From Neptunomonas concharum (lineage in GTDB: Bacteria; Pseudomonadota; Gammaproteobacteria; Pseudomonadales; Balneatricaceae): a stretch of DNA of 64,000 nt. A model generated the notes under the pieces. That model did not search any database. It saw only the letters and a list, made by a program, of their open reading frames with translations, and was not told the origin of the DNA. A program made the position numbers and the translations under genes. Position 1 is the stretch's first letter, and every line of letters begins with the position of its first letter. Where the stretch lies: the NCBI RefSeq assembly GCF_008630635.1, contig NZ_CP043869.1, forward strand, positions 1,302,001 through 1,366,000. The letters run 5' to 3'. This document shows, one piece after another, positions 23,415-62,400 of this stretch.

Positions 23415-24809
23415 ATGCTTTTTAATAAGCTCCCCGACGACTTATTTCTGCCCCTATCAGGTAAAAATCGGTATATATATCAGGCCGTTTTACTGCAACT
23501 GGCTGATCTCTTCTTCGACGAAGACCTGATTGACCCTTTCATTCCGAAAGATTTGGTTCGCTCCTCCATCGAAGACGCCGTGGTTCGTTTAGGTGTGCGT
23601 CGTTGGGAGCCGGAAGAGGATGATACAGACGATGCTGAACTCCCACGATCTAGCGCAGAATATACCAACCGGATTTACCGGCGTTTAGTGCAAACCGGCT
23701 GGATAGAGGAAGAGCAAAGGATTTATCGAACCTTTGTGTTGATGTCGCCTTCCATCAGTTATTTGTTAAGGTCGCTGGTATCCATCTCTACGTTGGAAAA
23801 ACGCTCATATGGTGGTGCGGTTCTCAACGTTTTAAGCTCGTTAGAGTCGGCAGTTAATGATCCTGCGGGGCGCGGGATTACGCTATCAGAAGCTGCTCAA
23901 ACAGCGGCTGAGTTCAGTGCTCATCTAACCGATATGATGCTGGGCTTGCGAGAGCTAAAGATTAGCCTAGCTAACTCCGAAAGCCCGCAAGAAGTGGTTC
24001 GAGGCTTTTTTGACCGCTTCGTTGAACATATCTTGGTATCCGATTATAAAACACTGAAAACCAAGAATAATCCGTTTCGCTTTCGTCGTCAGATTTTATC
24101 CCTGTTGCGTGATCTACAGTTTGATATGGTGAAGTTAGATAAGCTGGTTCGCCACTATCAGGAGCAGTTTGAATCGAACTATGAAGATGCTGAAGCGATG
24201 GTGCATCAGCATATCAATCGTATTATTCGGATTTTTGAATCAGTGGATAAACGTTTAGATACCATTGATGATTTCCGTTATCGCTTAGAAAAACGTGTTG
24301 CAGATACTGTCCGGTATATGGACAAAACGACGCCTGGGATGGCCTCGCGCCTTTCCCGTTTGATCACCGAAGTAGCCAAGCGCACCGATTTACCGGAGAT
24401 TGATACCTTGGAGTCTGTTGGTTTTATCTCGCCCTCCAGCGTACGCTCGCCTATTCGCCGACGAATTCAAGCTGAGCCTCGTGTGATCAGACAGCAGGTT
24501 ATAGATCCGAAAGTGATTGAATTACGTCAGCTATTCAAAGCCTTTAAAGAACGGCGTGAAGTGCGTATCGATCGAATAGAAAGTTACCTGGATGATCATC
24601 TGGCGAACAAAGAAAGCCTGCGCGCTAATGAGTTTCGTATCAACACCATTGAAGACTACATCTGCTTTAGTTATATCCGCCACCTTGCTTCGTTGGGCAA
24701 GAAAGCGAAAGCAACCGCAGACCGCTTTAATATCCAGTTTAATGATGATTACACTCAAGTTGCTGAGATGGTTGAGTGTCGTGATTTTGTAATTTATAGG
24801 AAACGCTAA
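23415..24809 (+). CDS. jetA: JetA-family kleisin subunit of an SMC complex
   Basis: 464 residues. Opens [33 protein letters not shown], the N-terminal pattern of the Wadjet JetA (DUF5716-like) family. It is helix-rich with winged-helix-like N- and C-terminal parts, as expected for a kleisin bridging the SMC heads, and has an arginine/glutamate-rich coiled region about 250-330. The stop overlaps the jetB ATG by one base (TAATG). JetA/JetB/JetC together form an SMC motor. In full Wadjet systems JetD is the nuclease, and none is found here. MksF-like condensin function is the alternative reading. Confidence 0.78.
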
Positions 24810-25444
24810 TGCTTGGGGATCTGCAAAAAATTATCAGTCGCAGTGATCAGTATGATGCCGGTGATTTTACCCGTGCAGCTAACTTATTGCTGACCAGTCA
24901 GTTTTTATATGCTGATCGCTCCTCGCATCGTGAGAGCTACTTTTTGGTGGCATCCCATGTTGATTACTTTACCAATTTGTTTGAAGCAATTGGCTGGTCA
25001 TTTATCTATCAGCCAGACGAAGCTTATATGGGTATCTTGCCTAAAGGTGAGGAGCGCAATCTTAAGCTGCGCCTTGATGAATCCTTGCTCATGCTGTGTA
25101 TGCGACAGCAGTATGAAACGAAGCTAGAGCAGTTTGAGGTGGAAAGTGGAAAAGCGTTTACAACCACTGACGAACTCCTGTCGCTCTATGAAAATCTGAC
25201 AGGTAAAGAGTTACCTAATGAAACGCGTATGAAGGAGATTCTTTCTCTGTTTAGCCGGCACGGCGTCATTGAGCGTGGTCGTCCTAATGAGACAGACCCG
25301 AAGAATGTCCCTTTTAGTATTTTGCCAACGATTCGCCAAGTGGTAATAGAAGATTATATAGGTCAGTTAGAAGCTCTGTGCGATACCGATACCCGCGATG
25401 CGCTGACAGAAGCAGAGGAGGCGATCGCCGATGAAACAGCTTAA
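24809..25444 (+). CDS. jetB: JetB-family KITE subunit (DUF4194-like)
   Basis: 211 residues. The pattern of MksE/JetB proteins is visible: an N-terminal [43 protein letters not shown], then [15 protein letters not shown] and a winged-helix-like [34 protein letters not shown]. These proteins dimerise and bind the kleisin next to the SMC heads. It is translationally coupled to both neighbours: 1-bp overlap with jetA and 14-bp overlap with jetC, whose AGGAGG ribosome site lies inside this frame. The acidic tail ([12 protein letters not shown]) is poorly conserved in the family. Confidence 0.8.
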
Positions 25445-28400
25445 TCGTATTGTATTGGTTAACTGGTATGTGCTTGGAGCAGTAGAAGTTCCTATTAAGG
25501 GTAATGTGGCTATTGTGGGTCCAAATGGCTCAGGTAAATCATCTTTACTGGATGCGATCCAAACCGTGCTGATGGGTGGGCATAAACGCAATCTTAGCTT
25601 CAACGCCTCAGCCGGACAAAAAAGCGAGCGCTCGTTGCGCACTTACTGTCTTGGTTTTATGGATGATGGCGGTAAAAAGGCGACGGCGCGAGAAGACTCC
25701 ATTACTTATATGGCATTAAGCTTCTTTGATACAGAGACAGCGAAGGAAACGTGTATAGGCATTGCGATCAGCGCATCGACTTCTTCCCCTGAAGAGGAGA
25801 TCTTAGGGCGTTTTATCTTGCCAAATTTCTCTGTGGCTTTGGACGACTTTTCTATCAAAGAAGGGGATGGGCGTTTACCTAAACCGTGGGCACAGGTGAA
25901 AACAGAACTGTTAAAACAGTGCCCTGATATGGTCTTAGAAAAACGGGCGAGTAAATTCGTAAAAGAGGTCACCAGTGCGCTAAGTCATGATCCATTGATG
26001 CCTAATGATGATGAAAAGTTCGTCAAAAACTTCAAGAATGCGCTCCGTTTTGTTCCGATCGATAGCCCGACAAAGTTCGTTCGTGAGTTTGTACTAGACG
26101 AGAATATCGTTCACGTTGGCGCTTTTCGAAAATCTTTGGATGAATATCGCGCGATGGAACAAAAAACGCGCGAAGTATTTAATCGCATAGAAGAGTTGGA
26201 AAAAGTTCAGGAGCTTTGCAAAGGGATCCAGCGCAATGTGAAGAATGCGGTGGAGTATGAGTGGGTTGTTCATGAGACTCGCTTTGAAAACGCAGATCTT
26301 AAGAAAGAAGATGCTCAGGAGCGTCTAGAGTCTAATCAAGAGAAAGAAACTCAGGTTCAGACCGAGCTGGAAGCTCATGCGGCCGAGATGAGCGATCTCA
26401 TGCAAAACTTGGCCAATGCCCGTGCTCAGCTGAACAACTCAGATGCGGCCCACCAAATCAAAGCGCTGGAGAACTCTATTGCAGCACGTCTGCATGAAGA
26501 GGGTGTGGTCAAAGACAAAATCCAGAATGTTTATGGTTTATTCCGAACTACCGTGGGTTTTGCAAACTATGAGAACCTGCTTCCAGAAAGTTTCACCCCC
26601 TTAGTAAAGCGCTCGGTTGATTTATGGCGCTCAGGTGAAGACATGATGGCGGATGTGTGGCCACCAGAACCTGTTGAAGTCGACAATACCTTAGATGAGC
26701 TAAAGAAAAGTGTAGACTCGGTACGCCGTGATATTGGCCGTAAATTTGAAGAGTCAGTAATACGGATTAATGAATTACGTACGAGCATTCAGAATCAGAA
26801 AGGTGCTGTTGAGCAGTTAAAGCAAGGCCGTGCGCCTGTTCGCCACAACACCCGTGAGCTCATGGAGCTATTGTCTGAATATGGTATTGAGTCCACGCCG
26901 ATATGTGAATTGGTCGATATTAATGAAGATAAATGGCGTATTGCGATTGAGTCTTTTCTAGGGGCTCGTCGTGAGGCTTTGATTGTTGACCCTGATCGTG
27001 TGAAAGAAGCGGTTACACTGTATCGTCGTAAGGGTCGACATCTCAAAGGTTGTCGTATTGTGAATACGGCAAAATCCCATGAGTGGATGAACCGCTCCAA
27101 GCCGCAGTCGCTTGCACAGTTTATCGATACAGATAATGAACATGCTCAAGCTTATATGAATCGTGCGTTAGGCGGAGTGATGGCGGTAGAAACAGAAGCC
27201 GAATTGTTACGTCAAGAGCGTGCTTTAACCTATGACTGTATGCTGCAGACGGAAGGCTCAACCACCTCTATTAATGAGCTATCGCCTATCATGGGTATAC
27301 GCCGTCGTGGTGATCAGTTAGCAACCCAAGGTAAACAAGTTGATCAGATGATGGTTGAGTTTACTGAGATGGGCAAACGCCATGAAGCGTTGGAAAAGCT
27401 GCGTGATAACCTTATTAACTTGACCACAAGCTTGGCGGGTGCTGGCGAAAAAGTATTCGATCTTGTGCGTCAGCGTGAACAGTTAGGTACAGAGATAGAA
27501 GGCTATCGCCAAGCGATTACGGACCTTCGTAATCATGATGATACGGGGATTCAACAGCGTATTGCAGATCTTGCGGATAATTTGAAGGCGGCTGAAGAGA
27601 AGAACAAAGTGCTGATGGATAAGTTGCAACGTATCCGTACCAGCATGATTAAAGACTCAGCGGCATTAGAGGTGTTGGATCAAGAGTTATCTGAGCATGC
27701 AGAAGCCCGCAACACCTGTGAATCGAATAAAGATTTTGATGCCCAATCCGCTCAGGAGAAACGCGACTATTTAGATGAAAGTTGCGGTGGCGAGCTAGAG
27801 CGCGTCATTTTTGAAGCGGCCAAAAAAGCACAGTCTGAGCTGACACTGCATGAGAAGAAAAAATATTCAGTGCGTGATGCGGTAGCGAATTACAAAGCCA
27901 AATTTCATGGTGGCGGTATGAGTCATCAAGGGCTGGATAAGATCGGTCCTGATTCCTCTCATGAAGAGCTGGAACAGTATGTCGATGAGACCGTTCAAGC
28001 GCTCAAAGATTCTGAACTTGCGCTTTATACCCAAAAAGCAGAGCGTGCACGCTTAGAAGCAGAAACGGCGTTCCGTTCAGATTTTGTGGCGCATTTGAAT
28101 GATCAAATCAACAAAATCAAAGACCTGATTCGTGAGCTGAACAATCACCTCAAACACCGTCCTTTCCATAAAGAGATGTATAGTTTTGAGATGTCTCCCA
28201 ATCCTGAGCTGAAAGATATTTTAGAGTTGGTTGAGGCATACACGCGATTAGATCAAGCAAATGTCGGTTCTCTATTTGACCTGAAATATGATGAAGATAA
28301 GCCTCATCAAGACGCATTGGCTAAAATCCACGACGTACTCAAAGATGAGGGTGAAAGCAGCCTCCTGCAAGATTATCGTAACTTCTACAACTTTGAATTA

Positions 28401-28859
28401 GTTGTAAAAGACCTTAATGGTAACCGTAAAACAACCCTGACTCAGCGTATCAAAACCGGTTCTGGTGGTGAGCACCAAGTGCCTTTCTATGTGGCAATGG
28501 CTGCTGCAATGGGGGCTGCTTACCGGTTAAAAGAGGGGCCAGATGGTAAAGCGGTTGGCGGTATGAGCCTGTCGGTATTCGATGAAGCCTTCAATAAACT
28601 CGACTCGGAAAATACCATCACCTCCCTCGGTTTTATGACCGATCTGGGATTGCAGACGATTATCGCGGCACCGGATGAAAAATACTCACTGTTGTCGTCT
28701 TGTATGGATACGATTATTAACGTTTGCCGTGATGGTCGTGTTGTTGATATCGATGTGGAGTTCCCAACCCCAAAAGGCAAAGCTCTGCTAAATTCTGATA
28801 ACCCCCGTAAGATGCTTGAGGCATCAGGGCTGTCAGAAGAGATGCTAGAAACGGTTTAA
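25431..28859 (+). CDS. jetC: JetC-family SMC-like ATPase
   Basis: 1,142 residues. Walker [12 protein letters not shown] at residues 28-38, directly after a short N-terminal strand ([16 protein letters not shown]). Two long coiled-coil arms (about 240-480 and 640-960) flank a hinge-like globular region with [17 protein letters not shown] and [21 protein letters not shown]. The C-terminal head has the signature [21 protein letters not shown] (SGGEH at 1011-1015) and Walker [14 protein letters not shown] (Asp1051, Glu1052). The arrangement is that of JetC/MksB. It moves along DNA by ATP-driven loop extrusion with JetA and JetB (family knowledge). The 3' end overlaps the convergent unknown gene by 15 bp. 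Confidence 0.88.
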
Positions 28860-29537
28860 CGACCAAAGTGTGCTTGTGTCCTCTTTTAAACGAGGCGCAG
28901 GCACCGTGTAAGTTGGCGTGAAGCTTAAAATCGCTTTGTCTTGATATCGTAACAGCAAGGTATTATCGATTTCCTGAATAGACCAGCCTGCGGGGGTGTC
29001 CAGTAACCGCAATAGGATGCTTTTTATTGGTGCTTCTTTTAGGGGAGCAGGTATAAAGCAGGGGTCGCTTAGTTGCTGGTGACTAAGTAAACAGCAAATA
29101 TGATGCAAATCCCAAGTATAGGGTTTGGCTACTATCGGTGCTAGTGGCCTGACAAGCGTTGGAGCGATCAAGGTTTTATCTTTAGCAAAGTACTTTCTGA
29201 CAGATAAATCAGAATGGACACCTAAAAAGCTGTTGTCACGAACATTACTTTTGAAATCCAGATCGCTTAATCCCTTGGTCACAGCAGATAGTTGCCAGTC
29301 ACACGCTTTAATGAGCTGCCACGCAGGTTCCATACTGGTTTTGGAGCCTAGGCTGTATTTAATTGCCTGACGGCCGTCTAACATCACTTCATCGAGCAAC
29401 GTCAGGTGTAAAAAAGTAGTTTGAAAATCGACTAAGCATAATGGTGATAGGGTATAAGCATAGGAACGCTCCCTACGAAAGAAGGAGACCCATTCGGTAC
29501 GTGTTTCTAATTGATTAAGAACAGGTATATGCATCAT
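28845..29537 (-). CDS. Unknown protein convergent with jetC
   Basis: About 230 residues from MMHIPVLNQLETRTEWVSFFRRERSY; the frame could start earlier (29591) but that would run into the divergent small gene. I do not recognise it. No signal peptide, membrane helix or nuclease motif is visible. It is not JetD, since it has neither the length (about 400) nor Toprim-like acidic motifs. The middle part carries SFLGVHSDLSVRKYF and KPYTWDLHHICCLLSHQ. Codon use resembles the neighbours. The ribosome site is weak, so the exact start is uncertain. Confidence 0.55.
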   Translation of the reverse strand: MMHIPVLNQLETRTEWVSFFRRERSYAYTLSPLCLVDFQTTFLHLTLLDEVMLDGRQAIKYSLGSKTSMEPAWQLIKACDWQLSAVTKGLSDLDFKSNVRDNSFLGVHSDLSVRKYFAKDKTLIAPTLVRPLAPIVAKPYTWDLHHICCLLSHQQLSDPCFIPAPLKEAPIKSILLRLLDTPAGWSIQEIDNTLLLRYQDKAILSFTPTYTVPAPRLKEDTSTLWSLNRF

Positions 29538-29591
29538 GATAGTTCGTAGTCGCTTTGCCCAGAGTATAAATAGATTAGGTTGATAACGCAC

Positions 29592-44415: not shown

Positions 44416-47400
44416 ATGTCAGCGGTCGTCGGTACGGTTAGTTTTTTGTCAGGCATGGTTTATGCTATTCAAGCGGACGGAACACAGCGTTTATTGATGT
44501 TAGGTGATGAGGTCTTTGCTGATGAAGTCATTAAAACCGGACCTGACGCTCAAGTAGGCATTACAATGGCCAATGGGAACCTCGTCAGCCTGTCTGGCGG
44601 GCAAAGTTGGTTTGTTGGTGCTGAGACCTACACCGAGGTTAAGGATTATCCAGTTGAAGATGCTGTAGCAACGGATGATATTGCTTCTGTGGATGCAATA
44701 CAGCAAGCCATCCTTGCTGGCGTAGACCCGACGCAGGTTACTGAAGCGACCGCTGCTGGTAATGCGGCGGCTGCTGGAGGGGCAGATGGTAATGAAGGCA
44801 GTAGCTTTGAAATGATATCTAGAACTGCTGCAGAGGCTGACCCTGAAGCAGGTTATGAAACCATTGGCCTAAATGCTACGCAAAATGAAACAGTCTTCCT
44901 AAGTGAAGATGAATCGGCGGTAAGGCCGCTTCTTCGTATAGCAGATGTAACAGTAGATGAGGATGCTGGTGTGATGACGATGACCATCACGCTGTCATCT
45001 CCTGCTACCGGTGACGTTACCTTTAATTACCAGTCCTCTAATAATAGCGCGTTGTCCGGTTCAGATTATGATTCGGTATTCGGTGAGGCTACAATTCCAG
45101 CAGGCGCTACGTCTGTTACTTTAACTATTCCAATTATTGATGACGCATTTGCAGAAGATCCTGAATCTTTCTTGATGACTATCACAAACGTTTCAGACAA
45201 CGTTATTGTGGAAGATGGAGAAGCTGTTGGTACCATCTTGGATGAAGCTGATGCAAGTGAAGAAGATACCGCTAACTTTACTTTGACGGGCGATGCTCAA
45301 GTTGAAGAGGGAGGCGTTGCTTCCTATACCTTAAGTGTGGATATTGCCCCAGAAACTGATGTCACTGCTACTGTGCAAACTGGCAACATTACGACAGATG
45401 ATGGTGATTATGTCCCCGTATTTACCACTGTTACTATTCCAGCTGGGTCTACATCAGTAGACTTTACAGTTAATACCAATCTAGATGACGAAGTGGAGGG
45501 TAATGAAACCTTCTCTGTTACTGTGTCGTCTATTACTGGTGGTGGCTTTGAAAATATCGCTATAGACACTCCTCAAGTAGAAACCGTAATTGTTGAGCCT
45601 GTTGCGCCGCCTCCAACACCAACTACAGCGGTTGTGAGTATTACAGGTCCGGGAAGTGTAATCGAAGGCGAGACAACAACAGATTACACCGTAACGATCA
45701 GTGAGCCTCCTACAGCCCCCGTCATTGTTAACTTCAGCTATACGACAACCGATGCTGATGGTAATGATTATGTCGCGGTTAACTCAGTTGTTATTCCAGC
45801 CGGCCAAACCAGTGTTACGTTCACAATTGATACCATAGATGACGCAATTGCCGAAGGTAGTGAGGATTTCACTGTTGCTATTCAAAATGTTGTTGGCGGC
45901 GGATCAGTGGACCTCTCAGTTTCAGGCTCAGCCGGTGAAGTAACGACTAGTATTGTTGATGAAACAGTTTCTGGACCTGAAGATACAGCTTTAGTTTCTA
46001 TCACCGGTGCCCAGTCTATTACGGAAGGTGATACGTCGGCTCCTTTTACTGTCAGTGTTAATCAGCCTGCAGGCGATGTTACTTCACCAATTACGGTATC
46101 GCTTGTTTATACTGGAGTGGCAGTCGATGGTACGGACTTTACAGGTGTGGCCGAAGTAACTATTCCAGCTGGAAGTAATAGTATTGATTTTACTGTTGAT
46201 ACGCTTGCTGACTCGTTAGTGGAGGGTAGTGAAAGCCTCATTATTACTATTGGGTCTATCAACGACACTAACTTTGAAAACATTGAGGCAGACCCGTCTG
46301 CTGAGAGCGTTAGCAGCAGTATCGTTGAAAGCAGTGGTGTTCAGATTTCAGTTAACGATGTTACCGTTAATGAAGATGCCGGTAGCATGACCTTCACGGT
46401 CACCCTGAGTAATCCAAGCACCTCACCGGTTACGGTGGATTATGCAACCCAAGATGGCACTGCAACGGCAGGGTTTGACTATGGTGCGGTATCCGGTACC
46501 CTGACCTTTGCACCAGGTGTGACGAGCCTGACGGTCACGATCCCCGTGGCGGATGACTTCATTGCCGAAGGGGGCGAGACACTGGATCTGGTGTTAAGTA
46601 ACCCAACGAACGCTACGATCACAGATGATGTAGGCTTAGGTATCATCCAAGATGAACCAACCCCAGGCCCAGCGGATACCATCAATGTCACCTTAAGTGG
46701 CCCAGCGACGGTTGCCGAAGGCGCGACAGCGACGTACACCGTCACCTTAAGTGCAGCAGCGATCACCGACATGGTGGTTGATGTTGTGACCGGCCATGTC
46801 ACCACCGATAATGGCGACTTGGTGCCAGTGACACAGCAAGTGACGATCGCGGCAGGTACAACCACGGCAACACTGGATGTTACCAACATCGATGATGCCT
46901 ATGCTGAAGGTGCTGAAGACTACACCGTTACCTTAACCGGCTCCTTCGGTGGCGGCGGTTTTGAAGCGGTGAATATCGACACCACACCGGTGACGACCAC
47001 CATCAATGACAACAGCCCAACCAATCCGGGTGTTGAGCCGGATGCTGAAGTGATCAACATCACCCTGACAGGGGACAGCGATGTTGCCGAAGGGGGAACA
47101 GCGACATACACCATCCACTTCGATCAGCCGACGGCAACGCCAATGGACATCGAAGTAGTCACCGGCCATATCACCACCGAAGATGGCGACCTGGTACCGA
47201 CGACGTTCACCGTAACGGTACCGGCGGGGGTCACCAGCCACGACTTCACGGTGAGTAATAACGATGATAACTTGGAAGAAGGTGATGAAGACTACAGCGT
47301 AGCGCTGACTGGTGTGACCAGCGGCGGTGGTTTTGAAACTGTTAATGTGGATACAACACCTGCATCATCAACAATAGTTGATGATGAAACCTTGTCGATT

Positions 47401-50400
47401 CGTGTGAACGACGTCACCGTTAACGAAGATGCGGGTATCCTGACCTTCACGGTAAGCTTAAGCGTACCGACGACGGCGGATGTCACCTTCGACTACGCGA
47501 CAGCGGATAACGGCAGTGCGTTAGCCGGCAGTGACTACACAGCGGTCAGCGGCAGTGCAACGATCCCGGCAGGCAGCACGCAAGTCACGATCGACGTACC
47601 GATCACCGACGACGTGTATCTGGAAAACCCAGAGACCTTCCTGATCAACCTGACCAACATCAGCAGTGGTGTGGTGGTGAGCGATGCGCAAGGCCAAGGA
47701 GCCATCCTAGACGATAGCAGCACTTCACCGGAGACCAGCACCCTAACGCTCACCTCAACACCGAGCGTCCAAGAAGGTGGCACGATCACCTACACGGTTG
47801 ACGTTGACAATGCACCGGTTGGCAGCCCCTTAGTGGTGACACTGGATAATGGCGCCATCATTACGATCCCTGTCGGTGCGACCACTGGCAGCGTTGATGT
47901 GACCGCACCGGATGATGTCTATGTAGACCCGGATACCGATATTGTTGTGGGTATTACCAGTGCGACGGGCGGTGAATACGAAGCCCTGGATACCAGTGAT
48001 ACTACGACAACCGTGCTAAGCGACGACAGCGACACCACCACGGTGACGTTGGAAGCGACGCCTGCGGTTGAAGAGGGCGGCACCATCACGTACACCGCGA
48101 CAGTAGACAATGCCCCAGAAGACACCCCACTGGTGATCACGCTGGACAACGGCGCGACCATCACCATCCCGGTGGGCGGTACGACCGGCAGTGTAGACGT
48201 AACAGCACCGGATGACGTCTATGTCGACCCGGATAGCGATATTGTTGTGGGCATCAGCAGCACGACCGGTGGCAACTACGAGAACGTAGATATCACCGAT
48301 ACTGCAACCACGGTACTCAGTGATGACAGCGACCTCACCACGTTGAGCCTCAGCGGCGCGACCACGGTGGCAGAAGGTGGCGATGCGACCTACACCCTAA
48401 CCCTGAGCAACCCGGCTGAAACCGACATGACGGTTGACGTGGTCACCGGCCATATCACCACAGACGATGGCGACCTGATACCGACGACCATCACGGTTAA
48501 TGTACCGGCTGGTGCGAGCACGGTTGACTTCACGGTGAGCAACAACCAAGACACCTTAGCCGAAGGCAACGAGAACTACAGCGTCGCCCTAACCGGCACG
48601 TTCACGGGCGGTAACTTCGAAAACCTCAGTGTAGATACCACCCCGGTAACGACCACGATCATCGATGACGAAGGCACGCCATCGCTGACGATCAACGACG
48701 TCACCGTCGATGAATCGGCAGGCACGATGACCTTCACCGTCACCCTCAGCACCGCCTCCAGTGGCGATGTAAGCTTCAGCTACGCCTCTGCTGATAATGG
48801 CAGTGCGTTGGCGGGCGACGACTACACGGCGGTAAGTGGAACCGGCACAATCACAGCGGGTCAGACCACGACCACCATCACGGTGCCGATCCTGGATGAC
48901 AACATTGATGAAACGGCCGAGACCTTCCAGCTGAACCTAACGGCGGTAACGTCAGGAGATGCCCAGATCGCCGATGGTCAAGGTATCGGTACCATCACCG
49001 ACGAACCGACCCCAGGACCAGAAGACACGGTTCTGGTATCGATCAGTGGCGACACCTCGGTAGAAGAAGGTGAAGCGCCCGCGGCGTATGTAATTACTGT
49101 GAGCGAAGCGCCACTGGTCGACATGACGGTCGACATCACCTACAGCTACCTCAGTGCAGAGACAGGTGACATCGTAGCGGCGACCACGCAGGTAACGATC
49201 CCAGCGGGCAGCACCAGCGTACCGTTTACGGTAGCAACGGTGGATGATGCGTATGCTGAAGGCGCGGAAGACTTTGCGGTGACGATCAGCAACCCAAGCA
49301 GCGGCGGCTTTGAAGCAGCGGCGGTGAACCCCGCGGCTGCGAGTGTCACGACCACGATCAACGACGAAAGCTCACCGACCTCCGAAGACACGGCAACGAT
49401 CAGCCTTGCGGGAGATAACAGTGTAATCGAAGGTAATGTAGCGACCTACACAGTTAGCGTAGACCGTATACCGTTAACGGATATGGTGGTGAGTGTCCAA
49501 ACGGGCCATGTCACGACAGAAGATGGCGACTATGTACCGTTGCTGACGACGGTAACGATCCCGGCGGGCCAGCAAACGGTCAGCTTCACAGTTACGACGA
49601 CAGACGACAACTTAGCGGAAGCGACAGAGAGCTACACGGTAACGATGACGAATGTCACGGGCGGTGGGTTCGAGAACACGGTGCTGGGTGTAAGTCAGGT
49701 GACGACGGTGATTACGGATGAGCCTGTACCAACGGATCCGGATGCAGACACCGCGATCGTGAGCCTAGTCGGCCCGGGCAGTGTTGTGGAAGGCGAAGTG
49801 ACCACGGACTACACCGTGAGCATCACCGAAGCACCGACGGAAGACCTAGTGGTGACGTTTGATTACACCACCACGGATGCGGATGGTAACGACTACGTGG
49901 CCGTGGGATCTGTGACGATCCTAGCGGGTCAGACCAGCGCGACCTTCCCGATCAGCACGATTGACGACAACTTGGCCGAAGGCAGTGAAGACTTCACCGT
50001 CTCCATCGCCAGCGTCGGCAACGGCGGTCTGGAAGATGTGCGCATCTCCACGACCGAGAACAGCGTCACGACCACCATTACCGATGAAACCGTACCAACG
50101 GATCCGGATGCAGACACCGCGATCGTGAGCCTAGTCGGCCCGGGCAGTGTTGTGGAAGGCGAAGTGACCACGGACTACACCGTGAGCATCACCGAAGCAC
50201 CGACGGAAGACTTAGTGGTGACGTTTGATTACACCACCACGGATGCGGATGGTAACGACTACGTGGCCGTGGGATCTGTGACGATCCTAGCGGGTCAGAC
50301 CAGCGCGACCTTCCCGATCAGCACGATTGACGACAACTTGGCCGAAGGCAGTGAAGACTTCACCGTCTCCATCGCCAGCGTCGGTAACGGCGGTCTGGAA

Positions 50401-53400
50401 GATGTGCGCATCTCCACGACCGAGAACAGCGTCACGACCACCATTACCGATGAAACCGTACCAACGGATCCGGATGCAGACACCGCGATCGTGAGCCTGG
50501 TTGGCCCGGGCAGTGTTGTGGAAGGCGAAGTGACCACGGACTACACCGTGAGCATCACCGAAGCACCGACGGAAGACTTAGTGGTGACGTTTGATTACAC
50601 CACCACGGATGCGGATGGTAACGACTACGTGGCCGTGGGATCTGTGACGATCCTAGCGGGTCAGACCAGCGCGACCTTCCCGATCAGCACGATTGACGAC
50701 AACTTGGCCGAAGGCAGTGAAGACTTCACCGTCTCCATCGCCAGCGTCGGCAACGGCGGTCTGGAAGATGTGCGCATCTCCACGACCGAGAACAGCGTCA
50801 CGACCACCATTACCGATGAAACCGTACCAACGGATCCGGATGCAGACACCGCGATCGTGAGCCTGGTTGGCCCAGGTAGTGTTGTGGAAGGCGAAGTGAC
50901 CACGGACTACACCGTGAGCATCACCGAAGCACCGACGGAAGACCTAGTGGTGACGTTTGATTACACCACCACGGATGCGGATGGTAACGACTACGTGGCC
51001 GTGGGATCTGTGACGATCCTAGCGGGTCAGACCAGCGCGACCTTCCCGATCAGCACGATTGACGACAACTTGGCCGAAGGCAGTGAAGACTTCACCGTCT
51101 CCATCGCCAGCGTCGGCAACGGCGGTCTGGAAGATGTGCGCATCTCCACGACCGAGAACAGCGTCACGACCACCATTACCGATGAAACCGTACCAACGGA
51201 TCCGGATGCAGACACCGCGATCGTGAGCCTGGTTGGCCCGGGCAGTGTTGTGGAAGGCGAAGTGACCACGGACTACACCGTGAGCATCACCGAAGCACCG
51301 ACGGAAGACCTAGTGGTGACGTTTGATTACACCACCACGGATGCGGATGGTAACGACTACGTGGCCGTGGGATCTGTGACGATCCTAGCGGGTCAGACCA
51401 GCGCGACCTTCCCGATCAGCACGATTGACGACAACTTGGCCGAAGGCAGTGAAGACTTCACCGTCTCCATCGCCAGCGTCGGTAACGGCGGTCTGGAAGA
51501 TGTGCGCATCTCCACGACCGAGAACAGCGTCACGACCACCATTACCGATGAAACCGTACCAACGGATCCGGATGCAGACACCGCGATCGTGAGCCTGGTT
51601 GGCCCAGGCAGTGTTGTGGAAGGCGAAGTGACCACGGACTACACCGTGAGCATCACCGAAGCACCGACGGAAGACCTGGTGGTGACGTTTAGCTATACCG
51701 TAACGGATGCCGATGGCACAGACTACGATCAAGTGGGTTCCGTGACGATCTTAGCCGGTACGACCAGCACGACTTTCACGATTAACACCATCGATGACAA
51801 CATTGCCGAAGGTGATGAAGACTTCACGGTCAGCATTGACACCTTAACGAACGGTGGCTTAGAAGATGTACGTGCTTCAACCACCGAGAACAGCGTCACG
51901 ACGACCATCAGTGACGAGCCGGTACCGACGGATCCGGATGCTGATACAGCCATCGTGCGTTTAGTCGGCCCGTTAAATGTTGTAGAAGGCTCGACCACTA
52001 CAGACTACTCTGTGAGCATTACGCAAGCGCCAGAAACCGACTTGGAAGTCACCTTTAGCTACACGACTACCGATGCGGATGGTAACGACTACGTGGCCGT
52101 GGGATCTGTGACGATCCCAGCAGGTCAAACGACAGCGACCTTTGCGATCGATACGCTCGATGATAACGTAGTAGAAGGTGATGAAGACTTCACCGTCTCT
52201 ATCAATACCATCCAGAATGGTGGCTTGGAAGATGTTCGCATCTCCACCACACAGAACAGCGTTACCACGACGATCGAAGACAATGATACGGTTGGCATCA
52301 GTGTTAACGACGTTACCGTTAATGAAGATGACGGTAGCATGACCTTCACGGTCACCCTGAGTAATCCAAGCACCTTGCCGGTTACGGTGGATTATGCGAC
52401 TCAGGATGGCACCGCAACGGCGGGTCTGGATTATACGGCCGTTTCTGACACCCTGACCTTTGCACCAGGTGTGACGAGCCTGACGGTCACGATTCCTGTG
52501 GCGGATGACTTCATTGCCGAAGGTGGCGAGACACTGGATCTGGTGTTAAGTAACCCAACGAACGCTACGATCACAGATGATGTGGGCTTAGGTATCATCC
52601 AAGATGAACCAACCCCAGGCCCAGCGGATACCATCAATGTCACTTTAAGTGGCCCAGCGACGGTTGCCGAAGGCGCGACAGCGACGTACACCGTCACCTT
52701 AAGTGCAGCAGCGATCACCGATATGGTGGTTGATGTTGTGACCGGCCATGTCACCACCGATAATGGCGACTTGGTGCCGGTGACACAGCAAGTGACGATC
52801 GCGGCAGGTACAACCACCGCGACACTGGATGTGACAAATACCGATGACGCCTATGCAGAAGGCGCCGAAGACTACACCGTTACCTTAACCGGCTCCTTCG
52901 GTGGCGGCGGTTTTGAAGCGGTAAATATCGACACCACACCGGTGACGACCACCATCAATGACAACAGCCCAACCAACCCGGGTGTTGAGCCGGATGCGGA
53001 AGTGATCAATATCACCCTGACAGGGGCCAGCGATGTTGCCGAAGGGGGTACAGCGACGTACACCATCCACTTCGATCAGCCGACGGCAACGCCAATGGAC
53101 ATCGAAGTGGTCACCGGCCATATCACCACCGAAGATGGCGACCTGGTACCGACGACGTTCACCGTAACGGTGCCGGCGGGGGTCACCAGCCACGACTTCA
53201 CGGTGAGTAACAATGACGACAACCTCTCAGAAGGTGATGAAGACTACAGCGTAGCGCTAACTGGCGTGACCAGCGGCGGTGGTTTTGAAACCATCAATGT
53301 GAATACCGGTGCCGTGACTACCACCATCACCGATGATGAAGTGCTATCAATCAGCGTGAACGACGTCACCGTTAACGAAGATGCGGGTATCCTGACCTTC

Positions 53401-56400
53401 ACGGTAAGCTTAAGCGTACCGACGACGGCGGATGTCACCTTCGACTACGCGACAGCGGATAACGGCAGTGCGTTAGCCGGCAGTGACTACACCGCGGTCA
53501 GCGGCAGTGCAACGATCCCGGCAGGCAGCACACAAGTCACGATCGACGTACCGATCACCGACGACGTGTATCTGGAAAACCCAGAGACCTTCCTGATCAA
53601 CCTGACCAACATCAGCAGTGGTGTGGTGGTGAGTGACGCGCAAGGCCAAGGAACCATCCTAGACGATAGCAGCACTTCACCGGAGACCAGTACTCTGACG
53701 CTTACTTCAACGCCGAGCGTCCAAGAAGGTGGCACGATCACCTACACGGTTGACGTTGACAATGCACCGGTTGGCAGCCCCTTAGTGGTGACACTGGACA
53801 ATGGCGCCATCATTACGATCCCTGTCGGTGCGACCACTGGCAGCGTTGATGTGACCGCACCGGATGATGTCTATGTAGACCCAGATACCGACATTGTTGT
53901 GGGTATTACCAGTGCGACGGGCGGTGAATACGAAGCCCTGGATACCAGTGATACCACGACAACCGTGCTAAGCGACGACAGCGACACCACCACGGTGACG
54001 TTGGAAGCGACGCCTGCGGTTGAAGAGGGCGGCACCATCACGTACACCGCGACAGTAGACAATGCCCCAGAAGACACCCCACTGGTGATCACGCTGGACA
54101 ACGGCGCGACCATCACTATCCCGGTGGGCGGTACGACCGGCAGTGTAGACGTAACAGCACCGGATGACGTCTATGTCGACCCGGATAGCGATATTGTTGT
54201 GGGCATCAGCAGCACGACCGGTGGCAACTACGAGAACTTAGACACTACTGACACAGCCACTACGGTACTCAGTGATGACAGTGACCTCACCACGTTGAGC
54301 CTCAGCGGCGCGACCACGGTGGCAGAAGGTGGCGATGCGACCTACACCCTAACCCTGAGCAACCCGGCTGAAACCGACATGACGGTTGACGTGGTCACCG
54401 GCCATATCACCACAGACGATGGCGACCTGATACCGACGACCATCACGGTTAATGTACCGGCTGGTGCGAGCACGGTTGACTTCACGGTGAGCAACAACCA
54501 AGACACCTTAGCCGAAGGCAACGAGAACTACAGCGTCGCCCTAACCGGCACGTTCACGGGCGGTAACTTCGAAAACCTCAGTGTAGATACCACCCCGGTA
54601 ACGACCACGATCATCGATGACGAAGGCACGCCATCGCTGACGATCAACGACGTCACCGTCGATGAATCGGCAGGCACGATGACCTTCACCGTCACCCTCA
54701 GCACCGCCTCCAGTGGCGATGTAAGCTTCAGCTACGCCTCTGCTGATAATGGCAGTGCGTTGGCGGGCGACGACTACACGGCGGTAAGTGGAACCGGCAC
54801 AATCACAGCGGGTCAGACCACGACCACCATCACGGTGCCGATCCTGGATGACAACATTGATGAAACGGCCGAGACCTTCCAGCTGAACCTAACGGCGGTA
54901 ACGTCAGGAGATGCCCAGATCGCCGATGGTCAAGGTATCGGTACCATCACCGACGAACCGACCCCAGGACCAGAAGACACGGTTCTGGTATCGATCAGTG
55001 GTGACACCTCGGTAGAAGAAGGTGAAGCGCCCGCGGCGTATGTTGTCACTGTGAGTGAAGCGCCACTGGTCGACATGACGGTCGACATCACCTACAGCTA
55101 CCTCAGTGCAGAGACAGGGGACATCGTAGCGGCGACCACGCAGGTAACGATCCCGGCGGGCAGCACCAGCGTACCGTTCACGGTCGAAACGGTGGACGAT
55201 GCGTATGCTGAAGGTGCGGAAGACTTTGCGGTGACGATCAGTAACCCAAGCAGCGGCGGCTTTGAAGCAGCGGCGGTGAACCCCGCGGCTGCGAGTGTCA
55301 CGACCACGATCAACGACGAAAGCTCACCGACCTCCGAAGACACGGCAACGATCAGCCTTGCGGGAGATAACAGTGTAATCGAAGGTAATGTAGCGACCTA
55401 CACAGTTAGCGTAGACCGTATACCGTTAACGGATATGGTGGTGAGTGTCCAAACGGGCCATGTCACGACAGAAGATGGCGACTATGTACCGTTGCTGACG
55501 ACGGTAACGATCCCGGCGGGCCAGCAAACGGTCAGCTTCACAGTTACGACGACAGACGACAACTTAGCGGAAGCGACAGAGAGCTACACGGTAACGATGA
55601 CGAATGTCACGGGCGGTGGGTTCGAGAACACGGTGCTGGGCGTAAGTCAGGTGACGACGGTGATTACGGATGAGCCTGTACCAACGGATCCGGATGCAGA
55701 CACCGCGATCGTGAGCCTAGTCGGCCCGGGCAGTGTTGTGGAAGGCGAAGTGACCACGGACTACACCGTGAGCATCACCGAAGCACCGACGGAAGACCTA
55801 GTGGTGACGTTTGATTACACCACCACGGATGCGGATGGTAACGACTACGTGGCCGTGGGATCTGTGACGATCCTAGCGGGTCAGACCAGCGCGACCTTCC
55901 CGATCAGCACGATTGACGACAACTTGGCCGAAGGCAGTGAAGACTTCACCGTCTCCATCGCCAGCGTCGGTAACGGCGGTCTGGAAGATGTGCGCATCTC
56001 CACGACCGAGAACAGCGTCACGACCACCATTACCGATGAAACCGTACCAACGGATCCGGATGCAGACACCGCGATCGTGAGCCTGGTTGGCCCGGGCAGT
56101 GTTGTGGAAGGCGAAGTGACCACGGACTACACCGTGAGCATCACCGAAGCACCGACGGAAGACCTAGTGGTGACGTTTGATTACACCACCACGGATGCGG
56201 ATGGTAACGACTACGTGGCCGTGGGATCTGTGACGATCCTAGCGGGTCAGACCAGCGCGACCTTCCCGATCAGCACGATTGACGACAACTTGGCCGAAGG
56301 CAGTGAAGACTTCACCGTCTCCATCGCCAGCGTCGGTAACGGCGGTCTGGAAGATGTGCGCATCTCCACGACCGAGAACAGCGTCACGACCACCATTACC

Positions 56401-59400
56401 GATGAAACCGTACCAACGGATCCGGATGCAGACACCGCGATCGTGAGCCTGGTTGGCCCAGGCAGTGTTGTGGAAGGCGAAGTGACCACGGACTACACCG
56501 TGAGCATCACCGAAGCACCGACGGAAGACCTGGTGGTGACGTTTAGCTATACCGTAACGGATGCCGATGGCACAGACTACGATCAAGTGGGTTCCGTGAC
56601 GATCTTAGCCGGTACGACCAGCACGACTTTCACGATTAACACCATCGATGACAACATTGCCGAAGGTGATGAAGACTTCACGGTCAGCATTGACACCTTA
56701 ACGAACGGTGGCTTAGAAGATGTACGTGCTTCAACCACCGAGAACAGCGTCACGACGACCATCAGTGACGAGCCGGTACCGACGGATCCGGATGCTGATA
56801 CAGCCATCGTGCGTTTAGTCGGCCCGTTAAATGTTGTAGAAGGCTCGACCACTACAGACTACTCTGTGAGCATTACGCAAGCGCCAGAAACCGACTTGGA
56901 AGTCACCTTTAGCTACACGACTACCGATGCGGATGGTAACGACTACGTGGCCGTGGGATCTGTGACGATCCCAGCAGGTCAAACGACAGCGACCTTTGCG
57001 ATCGATACGCTCGATGATAACGTAGTAGAAGGTGATGAAGACTTCACCGTCTCTATCAATACCATCCAGAATGGTGGCTTGGAAGATGTTCGCATCTCCA
57101 CCACACAGAACAGCGTTACCACGACGATCGAAGACAATGATACGGTTGGCATCAGTGTTAACGACGTTACCGTTAATGAAGATGACGGTAGCATGACCTT
57201 CACGGTCACCCTGAGTAATCCAAGCACCTTGCCGGTTACGGTGGATTATGCGACTCAGGATGGCACCGCAACGGCGGGTCTGGATTATACGGCCGTTTCT
57301 GACACCCTGACCTTTGCACCAGGTGTGACGAGCCTGACGGTCACGATTCCTGTGGCGGATGACTTCATTGCCGAAGGTGGCGAGACACTGGATCTGGTGT
57401 TAAGTAACCCAACGAACGCTACGATCACAGATGATGTGGGCTTAGGTATCATCCAAGATGAACCAACCCCAGGCCCAGCGGATACCATCAATGTCACTTT
57501 AAGTGGCCCAGCGACGGTTGCCGAAGGCGCGACAGCGACGTACACCGTCACCTTAAGTGCAGCAGCGATCACCGATATGGTGGTTGATGTTGTGACCGGC
57601 CATGTCACCACCGATAATGGCGACTTGGTGCCGGTGACACAGCAAGTGACGATCGCGGCAGGTACAACCACCGCGACACTGGATGTGACAAATACCGATG
57701 ACGCCTATGCAGAAGGCGCCGAAGACTACACCGTTACCTTAACCGGCTCCTTCGGTGGCGGCGGTTTTGAAGCGGTAAATATCGACACCACACCGGTGAC
57801 GACCACCATCAATGACAACAGCCCAACCAACCCGGGTGTTGAGCCGGATGCGGAAGTGATCAATATCACCCTGACAGGGGCCAGCGATGTTGCCGAAGGG
57901 GGTACAGCGACGTACACCATCCACTTCGATCAGCCGACGGCAACGCCAATGGACATCGAAGTGGTCACCGGCCATATCACCACCGAAGATGGCGACCTGG
58001 TACCGACGACGTTCACCGTAACGGTGCCGGCGGGGGTCACCAGCCACGACTTCACGGTGAGTAACAATGACGACAACCTCTCAGAAGGTGATGAAGACTA
58101 CAGCGTAGCGCTAACTGGCGTGACCAGCGGCGGTGGTTTTGAAACCATCAATGTGAATACCGGTGCCGTGACTACCACCATCACCGATGATGAAGTGCTA
58201 TCAATCAGCGTGAACGACGTCACCGTTAACGAAGATGCGGGTATCCTGACCTTCACGGTAAGCTTAAGCGTACCGACGACGGCGGATGTCACCTTCGACT
58301 ACGCGACAGCGGATAACGGCAGTGCGTTAGCCGGCAGTGACTACACCGCGGTCAGCGGCAGTGCAACGATCCCGGCAGGCAGCACACAAGTCACGATCGA
58401 CGTACCGATCACCGACGACGTGTATCTGGAAAACCCAGAGACCTTCCTGATCAACCTGACCAACATCAGCAGTGGTGTGGTGGTGAGTGACGCGCAAGGC
58501 CAAGGAACCATCCTAGACGATAGCAGCACTTCACCGGAGACCAGTACTCTGACGCTTACTTCAACGCCGAGCGTCCAAGAAGGTGGCACGATCACCTACA
58601 CGGTTGACGTTGACAATGCACCGGTTGGCAGCCCCTTAGTGGTGACACTGGACAATGGCGCCATCATTACGATCCCTGTCGGTGCGACCACTGGCAGCGT
58701 TGATGTGACCGCACCGGATGATGTCTATGTAGACCCAGATACCGACATTGTTGTGGGTATTACCAGTGCGACGGGCGGTGAATACGAAGCCCTGGATACC
58801 AGTGATACCACGACAACCGTGCTAAGCGACGACAGCGACACCACCACGGTGACGTTGGAAGCGACGCCTGCGGTTGAAGAGGGCGGCACCATCACGTACA
58901 CCGCGACAGTAGACAATGCCCCAGAAGACACCCCACTGGTGATCACGCTGGACAACGGCGCGACCATCACTATCCCGGTGGGCGGTACGACCGGCAGTGT
59001 AGACGTAACAGCACCGGATGACGTCTATGTCGACCCGGATAGCGATATTGTTGTGGGCATCAGCAGCACGACCGGTGGCAACTACGAGAACTTAGACACT
59101 ACTGACACAGCCACTACGGTACTCAGTGATGACAGTGACCTCACCACGTTGAGCCTCAGCGGCGCGACCACGGTGGCAGAAGGTGGCGATGCGACCTACA
59201 CCCTAACCCTGAGCAACCCGGCTGAAACCGACATGACGGTTGACGTGGTCACCGGCCATATCACCACAGACGATGGCGACCTGATACCGACGACCATCAC
59301 GGTTAATGTACCGGCTGGTGCGAGCACGGTTGACTTCACGGTGAGCAACAACCAAGACACCTTAGCCGAAGGCAACGAGAACTACAGCGTCGCCCTAACC

Positions 59401-62400
59401 GGCACGTTCACGGGCGGTAACTTCGAAAACCTCAGTGTAGATACCACCCCGGTAACGACCACGATCATCGATGACGAAGGCACGCCATCGCTGACGATCA
59501 ACGACGTCACCGTCGATGAATCGGCAGGCACGATGACCTTCACCGTCACCCTCAGCACCGCCTCCAGTGGCGATGTAAGCTTCAGCTACGCCTCTGCTGA
59601 TAATGGCAGTGCGTTGGCGGGCGACGACTACACGGCGGTAAGTGGAACCGGCACAATCACAGCGGGTCAGACCACGACCACCATCACGGTGCCGATCCTG
59701 GATGACAACATTGATGAAACGGCCGAGACCTTCCAGCTGAACCTAACGGCGGTAACGTCAGGAGATGCCCAGATCGCCGATGGTCAAGGTATCGGTACCA
59801 TCACCGACGAACCGACCCCAGGACCAGAAGACACGGTTCTGGTATCGATCAGTGGTGACACCTCGGTAGAAGAAGGTGAAGCGCCCGCGGCGTATGTTGT
59901 CACTGTGAGTGAAGCGCCACTGGTCGACATGACGGTCGACATCACCTACAGCTACCTCAGTGCAGAGACAGGGGACATCGTAGCGGCGACCACGCAGGTA
60001 ACGATCCCGGCGGGCAGCACCAGCGTACCGTTCACGGTCGAAACGGTGGACGATGCGTATGCTGAAGGTGCGGAAGACTTTGCGGTGACGATCAGTAACC
60101 CAAGCAGCGGCGGCTTTGAAGCAGCGGCGGTGAACCCCGCGGCTGCGAGTGTCACGACCACGATCAACGACGAAAGCTCACCGACCTCCGAAGACACGGC
60201 AACGATCAGCCTTGCGGGAGATAACAGTGTAATCGAAGGTAATGTAGCGACCTACACAGTTAGCGTAGACCGTATACCGTTAACGGATATGGTGGTGAGT
60301 GTCCAAACGGGCCATGTCACGACAGAAGATGGCGACTATGTACCGTTGCTGACGACGGTAACGATCCCGGCGGGCCAGCAAACGGTCAGCTTCACAGTTA
60401 CGACGACAGACGACAACTTAGCGGAAGCGACAGAGAGCTACACGGTAACGATGACGAATGTCACGGGCGGTGGGTTCGAGAACACGGTGCTGGGCGTAAG
60501 TCAGGTGACGACGGTGATTACGGATGAGCCTGTACCAACGGATCCGGATGCAGACACCGCGATCGTGAGCCTAGTCGGCCCGGGCAGTGTTGTGGAAGGC
60601 GAAGTGACCACGGACTACACCGTGAGCATCACCGAAGCACCGACGGAAGACCTAGTGGTGACGTTTGATTACACCACCACGGATGCGGATGGTAACGACT
60701 ACGTGGCCGTGGGATCTGTGACGATCCTAGCGGGTCAGACCAGCGCGACCTTCCCGATCAGCACGATTGACGACAACTTGGCCGAAGGCAGTGAAGACTT
60801 CACCGTCTCCATCGCCAGCGTCGGTAACGGCGGTCTGGAAGATGTGCGCATCTCCACGACCGAGAACAGCGTCACGACCACCATTACCGATGAAACCGTA
60901 CCAACGGATCCGGATGCAGACACCGCGATCGTGAGCCTGGTTGGCCCGGGCAGTGTTGTGGAAGGCGAAGTGACCACGGACTACACCGTGAGCATCACCG
61001 AAGCACCGACGGAAGACCTAGTGGTGACGTTTGATTACACCACCACGGATGCGGATGGTAACGACTACGTGGCCGTGGGATCTGTGACGATCCTAGCGGG
61101 TCAGACCAGCGCGACCTTCCCGATCAGCACGATTGACGACAACTTGGCCGAAGGCAGTGAAGACTTCACCGTCTCCATCGCCAGCGTCGGTAACGGCGGT
61201 CTGGAAGATGTGCGCATCTCCACGACCGAGAACAGCGTCACGACCACCATTACCGATGAAACCGTACCAACGGATCCGGATGCAGACACCGCGATCGTGA
61301 GCCTGGTTGGCCCAGGCAGTGTTGTGGAAGGCGAAGTGACCACGGACTACACCGTGAGCATCACCGAAGCACCGACGGAAGACCTGGTGGTGACGTTTAG
61401 CTATACCGTAACGGATGCCGATGGCACAGACTACGATCAAGTGGGTTCCGTGACGATCTTAGCCGGTACGACCAGCACGACTTTCACGATTAACACCATC
61501 GATGACAACATTGCCGAAGGTGATGAAGACTTCACGGTCAGCATTGACACCTTAACGAACGGTGGCTTAGAAGATGTACGTGCTTCAACCACCGAGAACA
61601 GCGTCACGACGACCATCAGTGACGAGCCGGTACCGACGGATCCGGATGCTGATACAGCCATCGTGCGTTTAGTCGGCCCGTTAAATGTTGTAGAAGGCTC
61701 GACCACTACAGACTACTCTGTGAGCATTACGCAAGCGCCAGAAACCGACTTGGAAGTCACCTTTAGCTACACGACTACCGATGCGGATGGTAACGACTAC
61801 GTGGCCGTGGGATCTGTGACGATCCCAGCAGGTCAAACGACAGCGACCTTTGCGATCGATACGCTCGATGATAACGTAGTAGAAGGTGATGAAGACTTCA
61901 CCGTCTCTATCAATACCATCCAGAATGGTGGCTTGGAAGATGTTCGCATCTCCACCACACAGAACAGCGTTACCACGACGATCGAAGACAATGATACGGT
62001 TGGCATCAGTGTTAACGACGTTACCGTTAATGAAGATGACGGTAGCATGACCTTCACGGTCACCCTGAGTAATCCAAGCACCTTGCCGGTTACGGTGGAT
62101 TATGCGACTCAGGATGGCACCGCAACGGCGGGTCTGGATTATACGGCCGTTTCTGACACCCTGACCTTTGCACCAGGTGTGACGAGCCTGACGGTCACGA
62201 TTCCTGTGGCGGATGACTTCATTGCCGAAGGTGGCGAGACACTGGATCTGGTGTTAAGTAACCCAACGAACGCTACGATCACAGATGATGTGGGCTTAGG
62301 TATCATCCAAGATGAACCAACCCCAGGCCCAGCGGATACCATCAATGTCACTTTAAGTGGCCCAGCGACGGTTGCCGAAGGCGCGACAGCGACGTACACC

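Follow-up and report, generated by a model that had tools for sequence, protein, structure and literature searches.

A Wadjet-type JetABC operon without a JetD nuclease as the probable chromosome condensin of Neptunomonas concharum and its relatives

Wadjet type I (JetABCD, also named EptABCD or MksBEFG) is among the described systems closest to the jetABC operon of Neptunomonas concharum reported here, which lies at 23415-28859 of a 64,000-nt stretch (the window) corresponding to positions 1,302,001-1,366,000 within a 3.56-Mb genome that is assembled as one contig and rated as 100% complete. Wadjet-group complexes without a nuclease, and MksBEF as a product of JetD loss, have already been published: PMC7617805 describes several members of the group as lacking the nuclease and lists operons, and PMC10586767 suggests a defence origin for MukBEF and MksBEF. 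MukBEF of Enterobacterales is a nuclease-less chromosomal condensin of the Wadjet group which, according to both sources, apparently replaced Smc-ScpAB, and MksBEF of Pseudomonas aeruginosa accompanies Smc-ScpAB, which is gone here. The N. concharum operon is read, with a probability of roughly 0.78, as an anciently disarmed Wadjet that would have replaced Smc-ScpAB as the sole chromosome condensin. For the two families concerned, that of N. concharum (f1, 116 genomes) and that of Marinomonas (f27, 17 genomes in the lists), no account of such a replacement was found in the open-access literature searched, and a prior mention is possible.

The operon consists of jetA (23415-24809, 464 amino acids [aa], kleisin subunit), jetB (24809-25444, 211 aa, KITE subunit), and jetC (25431-28859, 1142 aa, SMC ATPase), all intact, on the + strand, and overlapping by 1 bp (jetA/jetB) and 14 bp (jetB/jetC), with a GC content similar to that of neighbouring genes. 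JetA matches PF18982 (322 bits) and the PADLOC JetA1 model (731 bits), JetB matches DUF4194 (PF13835, 72.5 bits) and JetB1 (334 bits), and JetC matches JetC1 (1796 bits) and the Pfam families SbcC_Walker_B, AAA_29, and SMC_hinge (72.9, 61, and 25.2 bits), with Walker A at residues 30-37, the signature motif at 1010-1016, and Walker B and the D-loop at 1047-1058. The open reading frame (ORF) coordinates and both sets of models confirm the preliminary description of three tightly coupled genes for the Wadjet kleisin, KITE, and SMC subunits. Type I JetA, JetB, and JetC in a single operon, by PADLOC and gene overlaps, are as in Wadjet type I, and a kleisin-KITE-SMC operon in which the nuclease is optional also describes MksBEF of the P. 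aeruginosa type. The JetD of Wadjet type I (DUF3322 plus DUF2220/Toprim) is not found with the operon, and JetABC without it occurs in most genomes of the two families, as the only SMC-kleisin complex found. Similarity to the JetC chains of solved Wadjet structures (8as8, 8dk1, 8dk2, 9qxt) is distant, with E values of 1.4e-9 to 4.5e-11 and the best stretch within residues 4-84.

The apparent absence of both Smc-ScpAB and MukBEF is the main point and goes beyond what the preliminary description saw. In the N. concharum genome, Smc (TIGR02168), ScpA (PF02616), and the N-terminal domain of MukB (PF04310) did not exceed their cut-offs, while the positive controls for Smc and ScpA worked and Escherichia coli was positive for MukB; JetC itself has no PF04310 match, which separates it from MukB. 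Full Smc was over the cut-off in two of 28 genomes, the Smc-bearing, ScpA-positive controls G094 and G475, and its end pieces were split over two contigs in G088; in the 25 JetABC-only genomes, none of the 16 candidates scored per genome exceeded 69 bits, and the top matches were to the JetC coiled coil itself. JetABC resembles Smc-ScpAB in its proposed role and through the complementary genomic distribution of the two, but belongs to other SMC and kleisin families.

Within f1 (which we take to be the Nitrincolaceae), JetA was found in 93/116 genomes and 14/16 genera, and ScpA was over the cut-off in 12/116, all among the 23 JetA-negative genomes (0/93 of the JetA-positive ones). Eleven of the ScpA-positive genomes belong to genus g13 and the other, with internal stops, to g4 (G019), so that by genus ScpA was over the cut-off only in the two without JetA; one JetA-positive genome (G042) has a weak, stop-containing ScpA match below it. 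Genus g13 (e.g., G094 and G101), a small-genome genus with ScpA in 11/15 genomes and JetA in 0/15, is a natural outgroup for the replacement. The MukB N-terminal model gave weak, short matches of at most 25 bits in 13 f1 genomes. In f27, JetA was present in 17/17 genomes, and ScpA, JetD, and MukB were each over the cut-off in 0/17. A sample of 390 genomes from the order contained 127 with JetA, 341 with ScpA, and 71 with JetD_C, and its JetA and ScpA lists were compared by hand. None of the 34 JetA-positive f1 and f27 genomes in it had ScpA, and G094 of f1 had ScpA without JetA; ScpA was found in 340/355 of the remaining genomes, where 92 of 93 JetA-positive genomes retain it, the lone JetA-positive genome without it (G397) being 84% complete.

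The preliminary description had also stated that JetD is missing and that no nuclease partner lies nearby, and genome-wide searches bear this out: JetD_C (PF09983) and DUF3322 (PF11795) had no match in the complete N. concharum genome, with the Corynebacterium glutamicum control positive in both searches. JetD_C was found in seven f1 genomes and had no match in 109/116. It sits 670 kb from the JetA match in G022, on a different contig from JetA in G038, G040, and G109, and beside a second, different JetA in G064, and G045 has it without a PF18982 JetA. A system using a nuclease encoded elsewhere, which the preliminary description had offered as a second possibility, is disfavoured because N. 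concharum and those 109 genomes have no JetD_C match. Since the Pfam JetD_C model scores some operon-adjacent JetD proteins only partially, two JetD profiles were built from 17 and 39 JetD proteins and applied to 54 related f1 loci and 17 f27 loci, in which downstream sequence extended at least 2 kb in 49 of the 50 f1 loci with a long jetC frame (L011 ends there) and 4.4-6.6 kb in f27. They identified no JetD, the one weak match (6e-5, in L042) being to a protein recognised as KatG, and a JetD gene adjacent to the operon in close relatives, which would have spoken for a recent loss, was not seen in the 54 loci with these profiles. The JetB motif IFDR, which contacts JetD, gives no clear indication of whether JetD docking was lost: no group compared contains it in exact form, and at the aligned position (mostly SYFL in f1, HYLL in f27) the acid at the third place is lost in both families (0/69 JetB proteins) and found in 6/8 JetD-bearing ones on the JetC side, but also in 16/16 JetD-less MksE-like proteins.

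The 54 related loci come from named genomes of Neptunomonas, Marinobacterium, Neptuniibacter, Nitrincola, Amphritea, and Aliamphritea and, for the rest, from Oceanospirillaceae/Oceanospirillales or Osedax-symbiont records, the closest named ones to the window being from Neptunomonas (86-90% JetC identity). Conservation across related genera, which the preliminary description had proposed as a check, was found, with JetA and JetB homologues each in 51/54 loci (median identities of 74% and 74.5%). In 50/54 the jetC frame exceeds 1,050 codons, and three of the other four are cut by contig ends. In 68 aligned JetC proteins, the signature motif and Walker B (FDEA) are invariant, and Walker A is present in 67, the exception being cut by its contig. 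Pairwise JetC identity is 68-99.7% within f1 (median 76%), a median of 86% within f27, and 40% between the two. In same-locus comparisons, JetC identity is above that of DUF3422 (39/39 loci), BolA (38/38), h248, the convergent gene downstream of jetC (38/38), and the presumed RlmKL (5/5); it is higher than that of a putative AroA, also named by recognition rather than family search, in 11/14 loci, with about equal medians (77.9 vs 77.8%), and slightly lower than that of AmtB in 5/5. As synonymous sites were mostly saturated, dN/dS was dropped and nonsynonymous divergence (dN) alone was used; to five Neptunomonas loci it was 0.065-0.095 for JetC, 0.18-0.25 for RlmKL, and 0.059-0.095 for AmtB. 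Homologues of DUF3422 and BolA occur in the same stretch in 40/54 and 39/54 loci, respectively.

JetC phylogeny was examined in three trees, for which split supports are given in the order of a 44-protein IQ-TREE tree, a head-domain IQ-TREE tree with E. coli MukB, and a 65-protein FastTree tree. The FastTree sample included the window JetC, 15 of the 50 related-locus JetC proteins, and 10/17 from f27; 21 of the 65 sequences (including L151, cut by a contig end) were thinned out for the 44-protein tree, and 29 of the 65 plus MukB were used for the head-domain tree. JetC of f1 and f27 forms one clade (100, 100, 1.0), and this clade together with about nine relatives on the JetD-bearing side is separated from what is here labelled the MksB side (100, 92, 1.0). 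The six relatives placed as its sister comprise five with JetD next door and one without a match (L152); the alternative, in which these six group with the JetD-bearing L148-L150, appears in none of the three trees. Because the relatives come from different families, tip lengths are no test of rate. Loss of JetD on the stem of f1 and f27 would be the simplest history, with moderate support. The preliminary description had held that JetC nesting inside nuclease-bearing Wadjet clades would speak against a chromosomal role; JetC does group with JetD-bearing relatives (100), a position within them is only moderately supported, and such nesting leaves a condensin role intact, since two families share the absence of JetD, which therefore looks old.

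Descent from an accessory condensin of the P. aeruginosa MksBEF kind, instead of from a JetD-bearing Wadjet, would account for the identical three-subunit order without a nuclease, and MksBEF takes part in chromosome segregation in P. aeruginosa (PMC7485682). Nuclease-less operons are also common on the MksB side, where 16 of 31 loci examined had no JetD match; these are L165-L170, L173-L175, L177-L180, L182, L183, and L187, in the stretches fetched. Such descent is nevertheless unlikely: JetC stands apart from 21 MksB-side sequences, which are longer SMC proteins of about 1,210 aa (split support 100, in samples that hold no named P. aeruginosa MksB), and ScpA is retained in 16/16 of the JetD-less MksB-side genomes, whereas Smc-ScpAB is gone in f1 and f27. 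Nuclease loss thus appears recurrent and Smc-ScpAB loss does not. The MksBEF-like condensin suggested in the preliminary description accordingly stands as an analogy and is not supported as a line of descent, within that same sampling. The PADLOC JetC1 model also covers an MksB-side protein, and the type I label is broad, spanning both sides of the tree.

Plasmid defence with an effector elsewhere, in which JetABC would sense small circles and recruit a non-JetD nuclease, or silence or compact plasmids uncut, draws on the defence-library Wadjet models, which are the highest-scoring ones for JetABC, and on the grouping of JetC with JetD-bearing relatives. We consider it quite improbable given the lack of JetD in N. 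concharum and nearly all of f1, the lack of any other condensin found to organise the chromosome, and the presence of JetA in 93/116 genomes, the intact frames, and the low divergence; two JetD-bearing JetC proteins of f1 (L155 and L156), by contrast, lie far apart in the tree. A decaying remnant, functionless after a recent loss of JetD, would fit the missing nuclease and the broken frames of one Aliamphritea locus, but is scarcely credible beside the long jetC frames, intact catalytic motifs, and strong amino acid conservation, and the lack of JetD in the related loci examined means that the loss is not recent.

Several observations weigh against a condensin that replaced Smc-ScpAB. Eleven of the 116 f1 genomes, many of them fragmented, have neither JetA nor ScpA over the cut-off, and one 99% complete f1 genome (G015, locus L156) has only a JetD-linked JetA, with no conserved JetA and no ScpA. 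In Aliamphritea spongicola (L047/G017), jetA is split over two frames and there is no long jetC frame, perhaps owing to sequencing errors, as the assembly is listed as 78% complete. The Smc search scored just 16 candidates per genome. The sister relation of f1 and f27 to the six relatives, with L148-L150 outside, reaches only 84, 90, and 0.66, and the MukB outgroup of the head-domain tree is a very long branch. A single replacement followed by vertical descent and a transfer between the families would both fit, and the condensin function is deduced from gene content and conservation.

Starting from the gene content, missing condensins, conservation, and single clade that were observed directly, the favoured history and mechanism would be as follows. 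A Wadjet-like JetABC(D) would have been present in an ancestor and then lost its JetD nuclease; the loop-extruding motor that was left would have assumed the role of Smc-ScpAB, which was lost afterwards. The kleisin JetA would close a JetC dimer, JetB dimers would complete the complex, and complexes would probably be paired via JetA into a dimer of dimers, as in solved relatives. JetABC would load on the chromosome and extrude loops by ATP hydrolysis, and without JetD extrusion would be completed uncut, so that small circles would be tolerated. The inferred parts of this scheme are loop extrusion, the chromosomal target, the way the dimers are built, and the polarity of the change (JetD lost in this line).

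Sites similar to parS (at most one mismatch) were found in 12/16 JetABC-only genomes and in both g13 genomes tested but not in the Smc-bearing G475, and the backward parS control pattern gave one match each in G000 and G396. In N. concharum, they lie at 12.9, 18.0, and 25.7 kb, with what we take to be dnaA at base 1 of the genome. A short-motif search of about 79 kb from two genomes did not find ParB, and no ParB family search was made. The retention of parS-like sites in JetABC genomes, together with the lack of PF04310 in JetC and the separate long branch of MukB, distinguishes the system from MukBEF. A more speculative extension, which we hold only tentatively, is that JetABC, formerly part of a plasmid-killing system, was disarmed a single time in an ancestor shared by the two marine families, displaced Smc-ScpAB entirely, and was wired into the older ParB-parS loading pathway, whose sites persist near the origin, which would make it a second, independent MukBEF-like takeover with its ancestry still readable.

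The neighbouring gene h248 (28845-29591, - strand, 248 aa) is not JetD and lies outside the complex, and it is convergent and unrelated, as the preliminary description had it. It has no match in Pfam, NCBIfam, or PADLOC, and its fairly confident AlphaFold model (predicted local distance difference test score, 81; predicted template modelling score, 0.58) matched nothing in the PDB at an E value below 0.09; h248 was rejected as a substitute nuclease with neither a family nor a PDB fold match. Homologues occur in 39/54 related loci and lie no more than 150 bp downstream of jetC in 32 of the 50 whose jetC frame is long. No defence island was seen among the 24 of 28 closed window ORFs of at least 170 aa scanned with PADLOC, in keeping with the preliminary description. 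Outside JetABC, four proteins matched PADLOC models; Pfam identifies three of them as a sigma-54 response regulator, an ABC transporter, and a DEAD-box helicase, the fourth is presumably RlmKL, and these matches are read as probable cross-hits of housekeeping folds. At 44416-64000 (+ strand), a frame of 6528 codons or more stays open to the window edge, with small antisense ORFs spaced 4854 bases apart, which suggests a giant, possibly surface, protein with long internal repeats.

A further caution is that housekeeping condensins can be annotated wrongly as defence systems when JetABC models are used. With PADLOC PDLC00503, the window JetC scores 1796 bits and a Marinomonas JetC 1854 bits, and five JetD-bearing JetC proteins reach only 364-572 bits. 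A search of plasmid records with a Marinomonas JetC gave 16 matching records, all at <60% identity. The two families have close JetD-bearing relatives, their replacement of Smc-ScpAB would be nearly complete and lineage-specific, and genus g13 of f1 retains Smc-ScpAB. The proposed shift from a plasmid-defence to a chromosome-folding role would therefore be directly testable.

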